Origin: Dermabacteraceae bacterium TAE3-ERU5
GTDB lineage: Bacteria; Actinomycetota; Actinomycetes; Actinomycetales; Dermabacteraceae
Assembly: GCA_019218375.1 (NCBI GenBank)
Contig: JAHUUK010000004.1
Span: 124,001 to 188,000, forward strand
DNA length: 64,000 bases
Direction of reading: 5' to 3'
Position 1 is the first letter of the stretch, and each line of letters starts with the position of its first letter. The position numbers were made by a program, and so were the translations under genes. The notes beneath the pieces were generated by a model, which did no database searches, was not told the DNA's origin, and saw nothing but the letters and a program-made list of their open reading frames with translations. Shown here in pieces: positions 14,726 to 19,342 of the stretch.

Positions 14726-17700
14726 TTAGTTTCCTAGTTCGGTGATCGCCTTGCGCAGGCGTTTTTCCGAAACCGTGTATTTGGTGCGCAGCTGCTGCGC
14801 GAACAGGGAGACGCGCAGTTCCTCCAGCATCCAGTAGACCTCCACGATGTCGGCGCTGTTACGGCGTTCCGGCTCGCGCTTATCGCGCGCGGCCCGCCAG
14901 AGGCGTTCCAGGTCCTCTATCTGCCAGGCGATCTGGGCGTCCCGGGCGGGGTTCTCCTGCATCTTGTCCAGCCGGATCGCGCTGGCCTGCAGGTAGCGGT
15001 CGAGGTCGGGCAGGTGCGTCACGCCGGTGCGGGAAACGAAACCATCGGAGACGAGTCCCGCCGCGTGGTCGCGGATCTGGGTGAGCTGCTGCAGCACGCT
15101 GAGGGAGGTGACGCGGCGCAGTTCCCGCTCCAGCCGGTGGTGGCGTTCGAGCGCTTTCGCGGCGTCGCGCACGGCCTCGGCCGCTACCTCGCGGTGCTGC
15201 GCGCGCACGGCCTCCTCCACCGCCTCGAAACGGTCGCGTTCCCAGATCAGTTCCTCCCCCACCAGATGCGCGGTGGCGGCGCGGGAGGCATCTTCCAGAA
15301 GCGCCTGCGTGCTCGGGTAGGGCCCGGCCGCTATCGCCATCTTGGTGGGGTTCGGCAGAGCCGACAGCACCTGCGAGGGGGCGTGCGGCAGGTTGCGGTC
15401 GATCAGGGCGCAGACGCCCTCGCGGTGCGCGGCCTCCTGCTGCGCGGGGCTGGCGTGCACGCTCAGGTCGATGCGGGCGGTGCCGTCGGCCCGTTTCCCG
15501 TTCACGGTGAGCGCCGGGTAGCCGGTCACGGTCAGTCCGGCCACGTCGCGCTTATAGGTGCGTGGGATGGTGGGCAGCGGGAAGTCGGTTACGTCGGCGC
15601 GCGTGAAATCGTCGGCCTGTTTTTTGAGGCCCTCACCCACCCGCTTCTTAAAGCGTTTTTGCAAGGCCGACAGATCGTCGCCGCGCCCCACCTCGCGGCC
15701 CTGCATGTCCACCACCCTGAAGTGCATGCGCAGGTGAGCAGGCAGCTTATCGAGCTGGAATTCGGGGCCGTAGAGCGGCAGATCGTCCGGGATACCGGGC
15801 AGCGCAACCAGTTCGTCGGCCACCACCTCCAGGAAGTCCTCCCCGCCCTCCGGGTCCTCCCCCGCGATCACCTGCGCCACGGCCTTGGCGCGTTCCGGGG
15901 CGGGCGCGAAGTGGCGGCGCAGCGGCTTGGGCAGGCTGCGGATCAGCGCGGCGATCAGTTCCTCGCGCATGCCGGGCACGAGCCAGCCGAAACCGCGCGG
16001 CGTGACCCGGTTGAGCAGGCCGAGCGGGATGGTCACGGTGACGCCGTCCAATCCTGCGCCCGTGCCGTTCGCGGACGGCGTGTAGGAGTAGCTGAGCGGC
16101 AGTTGCAGATCGCCCTGCACCCAGGTGGAGGGGAAATCGTCGGCCACGGTGCGGGCCGCGTCCGCCGCCTCTTCCGTCAGCAGCAGTTCCTCGGTGAACG
16201 TGAGCAGATCGGGCGTCTTATGCCGCTGCACCTTCCACCAGGAATCGAAGTGGCGGCCCGAAACCACCTTCGCGGGGATGCGTTCGGCGTAGAACTCGTA
16301 AAGCGCTTCCTCGTCGGCGATCAGGTCGCGGCGGCGGGCGCGATCCTCCAGTTCGGAAAGCCGCTCCAGCAGGGCGTGGTTGTCACGGAAGAAGTGGTGG
16401 CGGGTCTGCCAGTCCCCCTCGATCAGGGCATGCCGGATGAACAGTTCCCGGCTCACCTGCGGGTCGATCTTGCCGTAGGGCACCACCCTGTCGGCCACCA
16501 GGGTGACGCCGTACAGCGTCACCTTTTCGTGCGCCATCGCGCAGGCGCGCTTGCTGGACCAGAACGGTTCGCTATAGCTGCGCTTCACCACGTGCCCGCC
16601 CAGCTCCTCGGCCCACGCCGGGTCGATCTTAGCGACGGTGCGGGCGAACAGGCGGGAGGTTTCCACCAGTTCGGCGGCCATCACGTAGTCGTAGTTTTTG
16701 CGCGCCAGGCGGGAACCGGGCCAGGTCACGAAGCGGGCGCCGCGCGCGCCCTGGTAGTCGCGGCGGCGTTCATCGTACAGACCGATGTGGCTGAGCAGGC
16801 CCGACAGCAACGCCTGGTGGATGGCGAGCGGGGAGGCCGGGTTGCTGGACGCCTTCATGCCCATGTCCCGTGCCATCTCGCGCAGCTGGGAGTGCAGGTC
16901 CCACCATTCGCGGATGCGCAGGTAGTGCAGGTATTCCTCGCGCACCTCGCGGCGGAACGCACTGCCGGAAAGCTCGCGGCGGCGCTGCTCCAGGTGCTCG
17001 TACAGTTTCAGGTAGGAGAGGAAGTCGCTGGTTTCGTCCGCGAAGCGGGCGTGCAGCTGCTTGGCGCGCTCGGGGTTTTCGAGGGGGCGTTCGCGCGGGT
17101 CCTGGATCGAGATGCCGGCGACGATGATCAGCACCTCTTTGAGCGCGCCCAGCCTGTCGGCCTCGATGATCATGCGTGCCAGGCGCGGATCGAGCGGGAA
17201 GCGTGCCAGGATACGGCCGACGTCGGTCAGCCGCCTGCCGCCGGGGGCGCGCGGCGCGGACTCGATAGCACCCAGTTCTTCCAGCAGGCGCACGCCCTCC
17301 GCAACCGCGCGTTTGTCGGGCGCCTGCACGAACGGGAACGAATCGACGTTCCCCAGCCCGAGCGAGGTCATCTGCAGTACGACGGAAGCGAGCGAGGTGC
17401 GTAGGATTTCGGGTTCGGTGAACTCGGGCCGGGTCAGGAAGTCCTCTTCGGCATACAGGCGGATCGCCACACCGGGGCGAGTACGGCCCGCGCGCCCGGC
17501 GCGCTGGGTGGCGCTGGCCTGGCTGATCGGTTCGATCGGCAGGCGCTGCACCTTGGTGCGCTGCGAATAGCGGGAGATGCGGGCCAGGCCCGAATCGATC
17601 ACGTAGACGATGCCGGGGACCGTCAGGGAGGTTTCGGCGACGTTCGTGGACAGGATGACCCGGCGTACCAGGGACGAGGTGGGCGGGCTGAAAATCTTTT

Positions 17701-18568
17701 GCTGGTCGACGGCGGAGAGGCGGGAGAACAGCGGCAGGATGTCCACCCGGTCCCCGCGACGCTTCGCGTGGGCCGTGAGTTCGTCCTGCACCTCGCGGAT
17801 CTCGCGTTCGCCGGGCAGGAACACGAGCACGTCGCCGGGGCCGTCGCCACAGATTTCGTCGTAGGCGTCGAGGATCGCGCCGGTGACGTCGCGCTCTTGG
17901 GAGCGCACGTCGTCAAGGTCGTCGTCCTCCCCCAGCTCCGGCTCCAGCACGAGCGGGCGGTAACGAACCTCGACCGGGTAGGTACGCCCGCTCACCTCGA
18001 TGACGGGCGCGGGGGTGCCGTCGGGCGTGGCGAAGTGGGCGGCGAAGCGTTCCAGATCGATGGTGGCCGACGTGATGATGACCTTCAGGTCGGGGCGTTT
18101 AGGCAGGATGGTGCGCAGGTAGCCGAGGATCACGTCGATGTTGAGGCTGCGCTCGTGCGCCTCGTCGATGATCAGGGTGTCGTAGCGCTTCAGCAGCCGG
18201 TCGCGGGAGATTTCGGCCAGCAGGATGCCGTCCGTCATCAGCTTCAGGCGGGCATCCTTGTGCACCTCGGAGGTGAAGCGCACCTGGTAGCCGACGGTGC
18301 CCTCACCCAGTTTCTGACCCAGTTCCTGGGCGATGCGCTGGGCAACGCTGCGGGCCGCGATCCGGCGCGGCTGGGTGTGGCCGATCAGCTTGCCGCGCGC
18401 GCCGCGCCCCAGCTCCAGGCACATCTTGGGCAGCTGCGTGGTCTTACCGGAGCCGGTCTCGCCCGCGATCACAACCACCTGGTTGTCGCGGATCGCCGCC
18501 ATGATCTCGTCGCGCCGCTCGCTGATCGGCAGACCGGCGGGGTAGACGATGCTGAGAGAAGTATTCAT
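14726..18568 (-). CDS. hrpA: ATP-dependent RNA helicase HrpA
   Basis: HrpA is a DEAH-box RNA helicase; in E. coli it rescues stalled, collided ribosomes and acts in mRNA processing. The 1280-residue protein has Walker A GETGSGKTTQLPK, DEAH in IIDEAHERSLN, SATID as motif III, TNVAETSLTVPGI as motif V and QRAGRAGRTRPG as motif VI. HA2 and OB-fold domains follow, then the long DUF3418 C-terminal part. The ATG at 18568 was chosen; a longer frame starts at 18640 but lacks a ribosome-binding site. A TATCCT box 10 bases upstream suggests a very short leader. The upstream spacer contains an 8-bp tandem repeat. Confidence 0.95.
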   Translation of the reverse strand: MNTSLSIVYPAGLPISERRDEIMAAIRDNQVVVIAGETGSGKTTQLPKMCLELGRGARGKLIGHTQPRRIAARSVAQRIAQELGQKLGEGTVGYQVRFTSEVHKDARLKLMTDGILLAEISRDRLLKRYDTLIIDEAHERSLNIDVILGYLRTILPKRPDLKVIITSATIDLERFAAHFATPDGTPAPVIEVSGRTYPVEVRYRPLVLEPELGEDDDLDDVRSQERDVTGAILDAYDEICGDGPGDVLVFLPGEREIREVQDELTAHAKRRGDRVDILPLFSRLSAVDQQKIFSPPTSSLVRRVILSTNVAETSLTVPGIVYVIDSGLARISRYSQRTKVQRLPIEPISQASATQRAGRAGRTRPGVAIRLYAEEDFLTRPEFTEPEILRTSLASVVLQMTSLGLGNVDSFPFVQAPDKRAVAEGVRLLEELGAIESAPRAPGGRRLTDVGRILARFPLDPRLARMIIEADRLGALKEVLIIVAGISIQDPRERPLENPERAKQLHARFADETSDFLSYLKLYEHLEQRRRELSGSAFRREVREEYLHYLRIREWWDLHSQLREMARDMGMKASSNPASPLAIHQALLSGLLSHIGLYDERRRDYQGARGARFVTWPGSRLARKNYDYVMAAELVETSRLFARTVAKIDPAWAEELGGHVVKRSYSEPFWSSKRACAMAHEKVTLYGVTLVADRVVPYGKIDPQVSRELFIRHALIEGDWQTRHHFFRDNHALLERLSELEDRARRRDLIADEEALYEFYAERIPAKVVSGRHFDSWWKVQRHKTPDLLTFTEELLLTEEAADAARTVADDFPSTWVQGDLQLPLSYSYTPSANGTGAGLDGVTVTIPLGLLNRVTPRGFGWLVPGMREELIAALIRSLPKPLRRHFAPAPERAKAVAQVIAGEDPEGGEDFLEVVADELVALPGIPDDLPLYGPEFQLDKLPAHLRMHFRVVDMQGREVGRGDDLSALQKRFKKRVGEGLKKQADDFTRADVTDFPLPTIPRTYKRDVAGLTVTGYPALTVNGKRADGTARIDLSVHASPAQQEAAHREGVCALIDRNLPHAPSQVLSALPNPTKMAIAAGPYPSTQALLEDASRAATAHLVGEELIWERDRFEAVEEAVRAQHREVAAEAVRDAAKALERHHRLERELRRVTSLSVLQQLTQIRDHAAGLVSDGFVSRTGVTHLPDLDRYLQASAIRLDKMQENPARDAQIAWQIEDLERLWRAARDKREPERRNSADIVEVYWMLEELRVSLFAQQLRTKYTVSEKRLRKAITELGN

Positions 18569-18639: not shown

Positions 18640-18701
18640 CTAAGCGCCTAAGCCCCTAAGCCCCTAAGCCCCTAAGCCCCTAAGCCCCTAAGCCCCTAAG
18701 C
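18640..18701. repeat. 8-bp tandem repeat (CTAAGCCC)n
   Basis: The unit CTAAGCCC is repeated 6.75 times without error (18648-18701), preceded by one imperfect copy CTAAGCGC (18640-18647). It lies about 72 bases upstream of the hrpA start codon. An 8-bp unit is not a multiple of three and is outside any gene, so copy-number changes would affect transcription or spacing rather than coding. Confidence 0.95.
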
Positions 18702-18771
18702 ATGTTTACACAGTTCCCATCGTGTTTGCGCTTACGCCGTTCCCGTGGCGTTTACGCTCCCCGCTCCCGTG

Positions 18772-18903
18772 ACATTTGGGTGCACTAAACGCTATTTATT
18801 CCCACCCCTTAACGTTTGGGTGCACTAACTGCTGCGAAAACGGGGTTTAACCCACCAAAAGTGCACCCAAACGTTAGCCCCAACAAAAAGTGCACCTAAA
18901 TGT
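18772..18903. repeat. Nested inverted repeats around a GTGCAC core
   Basis: Two pairs of inverted repeats are nested. The outer arms are 18772-18786 and 18889-18903 (15 bp, one mismatch that is a G-U pair in RNA). The inner arms are 18810-18826 and 18860-18876 (17 bp, perfect: TAACGTTTGGGTGCACT). All four copies share TTTGGGTGCACT, and no ORF is present. The preceding 70 bases (18703-18771) hold degenerate copies of a GTTTACGCT/GTTCCCGTG motif. Confidence 0.9.
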
Positions 18904-18934
18904 AAAAGACGTCATTAAAAGTCCCAAGGAAACG

Positions 18935-18966
18935 AAAAGCACCCTCGCAGAAGCGAAGGTGCTTTT
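18935..18966 (-). terminator. Terminator of ssrA
   Basis: A 14-bp stem with one mismatch (18935-18948 with 18953-18966) and a 4-base loop lies 8 bases beyond the tmRNA 3' end, followed on the minus strand by a T-rich stretch. Confidence 0.8.
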
Positions 18967-18974
18967 ATTAGTAA

Positions 18975-19342
18975 TGGTGGAGACGGCGGGAATCGAACCC
19001 GCGTCCGATAGTGCGAAACAGGGGCTTCTCCGGGCGCAGTCCATATAGGCGTTTTCTCAGCTACGGCGCTCTCATGGACAAGTCGCCGACTAGCTCAGTC
19101 GTCTAAGTGTTCAGACAGCCCCAACGACGAGGACTGAAAGCAGTGGCCTTCTGGATGATGGAAGGACCTGAGGCGAAGGCTAGCTCAGGGTTCCAGACTC
19201 GACTCGTTGCTCAGGCAGCGAGGGCGAAGTCAGTGCGCTTAGGTTCGGCACTTATTGTTTTCCCAGGACGTTTACGAGATGACCCGGGATTCTCGGCCCG
19301 CTTCCCCCTGTAAAACATCTACCGTCGAAACCGATCGTCCCC
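18975..19342 (-). ncRNA. ssrA: Transfer-messenger RNA (tmRNA)
   Basis: tmRNA rescues stalled ribosomes with SmpB. The 368-base gene reads right to left: the 5' acceptor strand GGGGACG begins at 19342 and pairs with CGTCTCC near 18979-18985 (one G-U). The T arm has GGGTTCGATTCCC, and the CCA end is encoded at 18975-18977. The tag reading frame is 19211-19249 and encodes AEPKRTDFALAA followed by TGA, ending in the usual proteolysis signal ALAA; with the alanine carried by tmRNA the tag is A-AEPKRTDFALAA. smpB lies 144 bases upstream in the same orientation. Confidence 0.95.

Follow-up and report, generated by a model that had tools for sequence, protein, structure and literature searches.

A four-site intergenic repeat family shared by two Dermabacteraceae species, with core letters constrained since the species split

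Introduction

Bacterial intergenic palindromic repeats are often taken as spent mobile DNA or as hairpins. ERIC, also called IRU or RU-1, is an enterobacterial intergenic inverted repeat of 127 bp, present in tens of copies or more according to the excerpts of the two sources used here (PMC10969869, PMC2229807); 7-bp terminal repeats, a target-site duplication (TSD) and TA ends are described for it in the excerpt of PMC2229807. The Correia or NEMIS elements of Neisseria are inverted-repeat elements of 107-155 bp with a 24-bp terminal inverted repeat, a TSD and TA ends, and the 155-bp type, almost always found between genes, has a site for the IHF protein (PMC2229807, PMC10969869, in part). In the same excerpts the CcrM-associated intergenic repeat (CIR) of Caulobacter contains a putative methyltransferase site (PMC10969869, PMC2229807). 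REPINs and REP sequences, as described in the part of PMC3116915 used here, are foldable, extragenic inverted pairs of a short motif with preferred spacing, and compensatory changes are common in REPINs.

Here we describe a repeat found in a 64,000-nucleotide stretch of Dermabacteraceae bacterium TAE3-ERU5, called the window below. The window's own genome is labelled G000, and G001 is a sister species of the same genus (Dermabacteraceae actinobacterium). Like ERIC in size and habit, the repeat is of similar length (138 bp here, about 127 bp in ERIC), mainly intergenic and confined to related hosts (PMC10969869, PMC2229807, in part). Unlike ERIC, which we compare by its description in these excerpts, it has four sites of 17 bp, lacks both a TA end and a family-wide TSD, and carries an 8-base core that has been constrained since two species split. 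Like REPINs it contains an inverted pair of a motif, but it has four sites, no Y1_Tnp gene in G000 and no compensatory changes above shuffles. It resembles the Correia elements, as far as the excerpts describe them, in being an intergenic inverted-repeat element, with a protein site in the 155-bp type, and differs in its motif and in having neither a family-wide TSD nor a TA end. Like CIR as described there, it is an intergenic repeat with a DNA motif proposed to be recognised by a protein; unlike CIR, its motif is longer and fourfold, and GTGCAC occurs at the expected number in the window. Because no family-wide TSD, no mobilizer among the transposase families searched and no compensatory change above shuffles were found, we file the repeat under neither MITE nor REPIN. 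Among the papers listed in a literature search, none was about this repeat.

Results

Architecture of the window copy and its neighbours

The whole element (model positions 1-138 in alignment A2 of 45 copies) lies at 18769..18906 on the + strand of the window, which is 142769-142906 of G000 contig C6. The covariance model R1, built from the same 45 copies, matches it with 151.7 bits (E 4.2e-30). Site 1, the outer left 17-mer TGACATTTGGGTGCACT, is located at 18770..18786 (+; core 18775-18786). Site 2, the inner left 17-mer TAACGTTTGGGTGCACT, is located at 18810..18826 (+; core 18815-18826), with its core starting 40 bases after that of site 1. The inner spacer of 33 bases (18827..18859, given without strand) is followed by two inverted sites, the inner right 17-mer, site 3 (18860..18876, -; core 18860-18871), and the outer right 17-mer, site 4 (18889..18905, -; core 18889-18900), whose core starts 29 bases after that of site 3. 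The preliminary description of this locus had the cores in the order direct, direct, inverted, inverted, which is what the core positions give (18775 and 18815 on +, 18860 and 18889 on -). It also had both pairs of arms free of mismatch. This is right for the inner arms (18810-18826 and 18860-18876), which are complementary at 17 of 17 bases; the outer arms (18772-18786 and 18889-18903) do pair over 15 bases, but with one G opposite T (ACATTTGGGTGCACT against ACATTTAGGTGCACT). The core TTTGGGTGCACT is exact in three of the four sites, and the site 4 core reads TTTAGGTGCACT.

The neighbours named earlier, hrpA and ssrA, were confirmed. hrpA (14726..18568, -; TIGR01967, 1581.8 bits) has its ATG at 18568, which places the window copy some 200 bases upstream. 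The tmRNA gene ssrA (18975..19342, -) was found by ARAGORN and Rfam; its 3' end at 18975 is 72 bases beyond 18903, within the 75 bases given before. A terminator-like hairpin follows ssrA at 18935..18966 (-), outside the element, and smpB, encoded on the same strand, is located upstream of ssrA. Upstream of hrpA, window 18640-18702 also contains a tandem 8-base repeat, CTAAGCCC, of about seven or eight units.

Copies, range and shared plan

A search for the core had been proposed, together with one for the full element. In the whole 1.9-Mb G000 genome TTTRGGTGCACT occurred 162 times (73 + 89) with at most one mismatch, compared with 5 times (3 + 2) for the reversed pattern, so the window cores are far above chance. 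The covariance model gave 93 matches on both strands of G000 and 78 in G001, which correspond, by a hand count among the matches listed, to at least 46 and at least 40 distinct places, respectively. Two further places in G000 were found from core pairs (L032, L036), which makes at least 48. The core is thus neither unique to this locus nor absent from relatives, since it is spread genome-wide and is common to the sister species.

Among 47 genomes of the family Dermabacteraceae only G000 and G001 matched the element; the 45 others gave no match under stricter filters. Exact cores were present in 3 of 39 genomes (a set that includes G000 and G001 and overlaps the 47), namely its own, the sister and a third with a single hit. 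In a scan of public genomes that may omit those belonging to the window's source, TAE3-ERU27 alone matched. The repeat is a genus-restricted, dispersed, intergenic family.

The copies share one layout, two direct sites followed by two inverted ones, in which the core starts are separated by 40, 45 and 29 bases, or the reverse. All four sites were recognised in 62 of the 76 elements of both genomes, and the common motif at all four is the 17-bp TNACRYYYRGGTGCACT. Beyond the core there are five patterned positions (TNACG) and nothing clear further out. The inner cores start 45 bases apart in 83 of 84 inverted pairs, after exclusion of five closer hits (13 and 4 bases) taken to be chance. A count per element gives a right spacing of 29 in 62 of 66 and a left spacing of 40 in 51 of 66. 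The inner spacer is the longest and has the fewest length changes (P 2e-5 against the left, P 0.17 against the right). Fetched DNA, comprising stretches of G000, one contig of G001 and the window, holds 170 strong cores (score at least 11). Of these, 168 have another core nearby and lie in elements, and one of the other two is half of an element split by an insert.

CTGCTG and ACCAAA are common to the inner and outer units, and the interior lengths fit a unit within a unit (102 - 33 = 69 = 57 + 12). From these likenesses one unit may have been nested inside another. At one locus in both species (L048:2944 and L085:3868) the 33-base inner spacer runs in the opposite direction to that of other copies; since it is found at the same place in both, this inversion is probably older than the species split.

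Divergence between the two species

We compared 32 ortholog pairs of elements between G000 and G001. Six of the 96 modules, in which the core had at least five changes, were dropped as lost. With these dropped, GGTGCACT had diverged at 20 of 976 positions (2.0%), compared with 276/2133 (12.9%) in the spacers, 63/610 (10.3%) in TNACG and 67/488 (13.7%; 59 transitions and 8 transversions) in YYYR, and each of the four cores was at 5.1-6.5%. Four-fold sites had diverged at 2854/19287 (14.8%). The spacers are near this rate when nothing is dropped (P 0.16) and slightly lower with the modules dropped (P 0.02). The flanks were 36.9% diverged, a value raised by non-homologous stretches.

With nothing dropped, the 32 pairs gave 127/1512 (8.4%) for the core compared with 392/2840 (13.8%) for the spacers (P 1e-7). 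In the first 26 pairs, before dropping, the outer right core was at 13.8%, because whole ends were lost in some pairs. Most ortholog pairs were identified by way of their cores, a procedure biased towards conserved cores. In the six pairs without an exact core in G001 the core was at 25/288 (8.7%) and the spacer at 73/540 (13.5%; P 0.04). A neutral simulation with the finder's thresholds, which limits this bias and does not remove it, gave 12.4%, or 10.3% if one exact core was demanded, compared with the 8.4% seen; 8.4% or less was reached in 0 and 0.28% of 5000 samples, respectively. Core divergence being below the neutral simulation, both species have retained the cores in place since they split, and GGTGCACT has been under strong constraint over that time. 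No single copy is essential, given the loss of 6 of the 96 modules and the absence or breakage of several elements in one species or the other (L055/L095, L042:377/L093, L090/L102, L071/L100).

Tests of mobility

The repeat has the traits of a MITE in being short, non-coding and dispersed, with terminal inverted repeats. A MITE- or REP-like mobile element was the first reading offered in the preliminary description. What stands of it is a dispersed, multicopy intergenic repeat with at least 46 places in G000; its mobility found no support in a family-wide TSD, a clean empty site or a hit to three transposase families. In the TSD check on 63 elements (best over offsets) no family-wide duplication was found. 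Matches at k = 2, 3, 5 and 6 were within shuffles, nine elements matched at k = 4 (P 0.037) beside a conserved end, and one element matched at k = 8 and 9 (P 0.053 and 0.013). Y1_Tnp, the RAYT transposase, had no hit in G000, rve and DDE_Tnp_1 had none in G000 or G001, and no cores at transposon distance were found in fetched DNA. Viral contigs gave no match to a paired pattern, and phage and plasmid records gave none to the element. There are two tyrosine recombinases in G000 and three in G001, the third G001 match being C12:513021-513590.

For 32 of the 45 G000 elements examined, the sister has an alignable copy at the corresponding position. No clean empty site was seen among the loci compared between G000 and G001; the species without a copy had remnants at L092 and L102 and different sequence at L093 and L095, and at L100 the G000 counterpart of the sister copy is broken by an insert. 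L031 and L036 (no sister stretch) and L063 (unaligned) were left out of this comparison, and C5:18126 and C5:67214 gave only gaps. Local changes included 40 bases lost between direct cores (L062 against L091), 28-base tandem copies (L049) and a lost end (L050 against L087).

These results bear on the reading that ranks next after a protein-binding array, namely that the family is a MITE now dead or dormant. On this reading it is a non-autonomous transposon, its arms being the ends bound by a transposase, and it decays without host function. Multi-site transposon ends have two sites per end, with the ends inverted. The family is likewise multicopy, palindromic and intergenic with two sites per end; its outer and inner units, with CTGCTG and ACCAAA in common, look related, as they would after nesting, and its conserved spacers show common descent. 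Neither TSD, empty site, transposase nor cores at transposon distance speak for it, and the strongest counterpoint is that the cores have been constrained after the split, which a dead element would not show. We regard the dead MITE as rather doubtful.

Folding and base pairing

A structured RNA had also been suggested. Positions 18770-18907 do fold strongly, with z of -6.2 on the + strand and -4.9 on the - strand (0 of 200 shuffles as low), and eight other copies fold too (z -4.8 to -10.5). None of five measures of the nested pairing was above shuffles, however, as covariation would have required. Paired cells amounted to 84.8% in both the data and the shuffles, pairs changed on both sides to 12 (12.9 in shuffles), double-change cells to 23 (26.6), further types to 38 (36.9) and the score to 0.100 (0.102). 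Slid pairings fell below the named structure (23-43% paired, score 0.025-0.068), as they must when the arms are built from one motif. RNAalifold kept 22 pairs, 4 of them with some sequence changed on both sides, and its covariation term was -0.53 of -24.57 kcal/mol. Arm identity within an element was not above that between elements (z -0.96 for arms 1-4, 0.16 for arms 2-3). Departures from YYYR, summed over four positions and four arms, comprised 128 transitions and 8 transversions. At gathering score Rfam matched only tRNA and tmRNA in the window and nothing at the element, and no terminator-like site was found inside the window copy. The structured RNA is therefore unsupported.

A related reading takes the long hairpin of nested arms as the functional form, active as a single strand, either as DNA for a RAYT or as RNA in mRNA stability or termination, in the manner of REPINs. 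The strong folding, the four RNAalifold pairs with change on both sides and a slight excess of 3' gene ends facing the elements (53 of 89 G000 flanks, P 0.09) are in its favour. Covariation is nonetheless not above shuffles, whereas REPINs commonly show compensatory changes in the part of PMC3116915 used here; G000 has no Y1 transposase, and the window copy contains no terminator-like site. Strand preference is likewise absent, 8 of the 17 oriented G000 copies between tandem genes lying with the genes and 9 against (counted by eye). A functional hairpin of this kind is improbable. As far as the counts can tell, the hairpin is not what selection keeps, with the invariant core letters silent on pairing. 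These letters would suit reading by a protein and pairing alike, so the eight core bases may also act in a hairpin.

Genomic placement

Seventy-three of the 76 elements of the two genomes touch no called gene, and three overlap one by 11-17 bases; the calls are from a codon-usage caller, and one of the three overlaps is that of the window copy with a spurious small frame. The elements lie in 28 convergent and 10 divergent stretches out of 76, compared with 44 and 50 of 196 intergenic stretches (P 0.007), where the 196 are those over 80 bases, element-bearing ones included, and orthologs count twice in the 76. Pfam families were found in 19 of 20 neighbours scanned, one having none, and their functions are mixed, including PNPase, GroEL, ketopantoate reductase, UDP-GlcNAc epimerase, prenyltransferase and GH42.

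The preliminary description had further considered a multi-site operator around GTGCAC. An array of sites is the closest of its proposals, given the independent variation of the arms and the constraint on GGTGCACT, but an operator at a promoter does not fit the preference of the copies for convergent rather than divergent gene pairs. The operator of a single regulon, in which a transcription factor would control the flanking genes through four sites, could account for a multi-site motif with fixed spacing and for the position of the window copy upstream of hrpA; the under-use of divergent and over-use of convergent stretches, the mixed functions of the neighbours and the presence of just two weak cases of isolated sites outside elements in fetched DNA make it very unlikely.

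Copies are crowded around dnaA. In G001, 10 of 40 copies, among the matches listed, lie within 55 kb of dnaA (P 5e-5), and in G000 the region C5:1-80000, which holds dnaA, has 11 of 48 (P 4e-6), figures that are inflated by local duplicates and partly reflect more intergenic DNA there. The density per 10 kb of intergenic DNA, likewise raised by local duplicates, is 8.1 and 9.5 copies near dnaA in G000, where C8 is placed adjoining C5 from the sister genome, compared with 1.9 in the window, and 5.3 near dnaA in G001 compared with 2.5. The parS consensus is a TGTTTCACGTGAAACA-type palindrome. Ten near-consensus parS palindromes (1-2 mismatches) lie within 1.1 kb at G000 C5:36393-37479, and a two-site copy of the repeat lies at C5:37677, about 200 bases from this array. 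Sites for chromosome segregation or replication (parS-like, KOPS-like or DnaA-related) would suit the crowding and this neighbouring copy, but are the least likely of the readings considered, because the elements hold no parS-type palindrome and a separate parS-like array exists, so that they are not the centromere, and because their orientation does not follow the replication arm (best strands on G001 C1: 5+/5- left of dnaA, 7+/8- right).

Inserts at the elements

Four inserts of about 1-4 kb were observed in or beside elements. At the sister counterpart of the window copy, 3.47 kb (G001 C12:541574-545044; L083 4076-7544) with HSP70, DnaJ-TPR and GrpE-like genes is inserted between the element end and the ssrA hairpin, which corresponds to window 18903-18935. 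In G000 C7 (L049 3016-5352) an NgoMIV-type restriction enzyme and a C5 cytosine methyltransferase adjoin an element and are absent from the sister stretch L086. In G000 C5 (L100 7853-12013) an insert within an element breaks the second core; it is a pair matching the PADLOC PD-Lambda-5 models, a D12 methyltransferase and a 502-aa protein. In G001 C1 (L073 4304-5390) a glycosyltransferase gene (PF05637) lies within an element, with the inner unit on both sides. The junctions vary, lying inside core 2, after site 4, beyond the element or at an inner unit on both sides. As they differ, we do not claim an attachment site for mobile cassettes.

Gaps between the species occur in 10 of 16 element-bearing intergenic stretches and in 6 of 63 others (P 3e-5), a count that omits the 3.47-kb insert at the window copy, whose stretch was cut by the spurious small frame. 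An indel hot spot was rejected, since elements sit in long stretches and the length-controlled excess was not significant (10 against 8.9 expected, P 0.26). A methylation or restriction target was rejected as well, with 27 GTGCAC in the window (4 in the element) against 23.9 expected. DNA uptake sequences were discounted, the sites being almost confined to four-site elements.

Discussion

A multi-site protein-binding array fits the family best, because variation around the single motif is independent from arm to arm and GGTGCACT has been constrained after the split. The elements combine, as such an array would, one motif at all sites, independent variation, constraint and fixed spacing. We consider it moderately probable, from sequence comparison, that this repeat, formerly of a mobile type, no longer moves and that its cores persist as binding sites for a putative protein.

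Such a protein would read TNACRYYYRGGTGCACT in double-stranded DNA in a sequence-specific manner. Two copies of it may bind the inner inverted pair, for which the fixed 45-bp spacing would be required, and two more may bind the outer sites. Together they would form a compact intergenic complex of DNA and protein, a node that is architectural or blocks transcription; we infer such a node from the under-use of divergent stretches and from the lack of any visible regulon logic. The family may have arisen by MITE-like spread, perhaps of one unit nested in another, with movement ending before the two species split and copies being kept afterwards for the bound protein. More tentatively, on the same kind of comparison, the elements could be chromosome-wide arrays of an undescribed DNA-architecture protein of the genus, with a two-fold symmetric inner pair, densest near dnaA and derived from a domesticated mobile repeat.

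With 32 repeats fixed in place in two species, an intergenic repeat family can be compared copy by copy. What has been conserved is a set of four short DNA sites, and there is no indication that base pairing itself was conserved. The 17-mer is a ready search bait for the binding protein. If a protein is found on these sites, the family would be a clear case of a mobile-type repeat that became chromosome-wide binding arrays.
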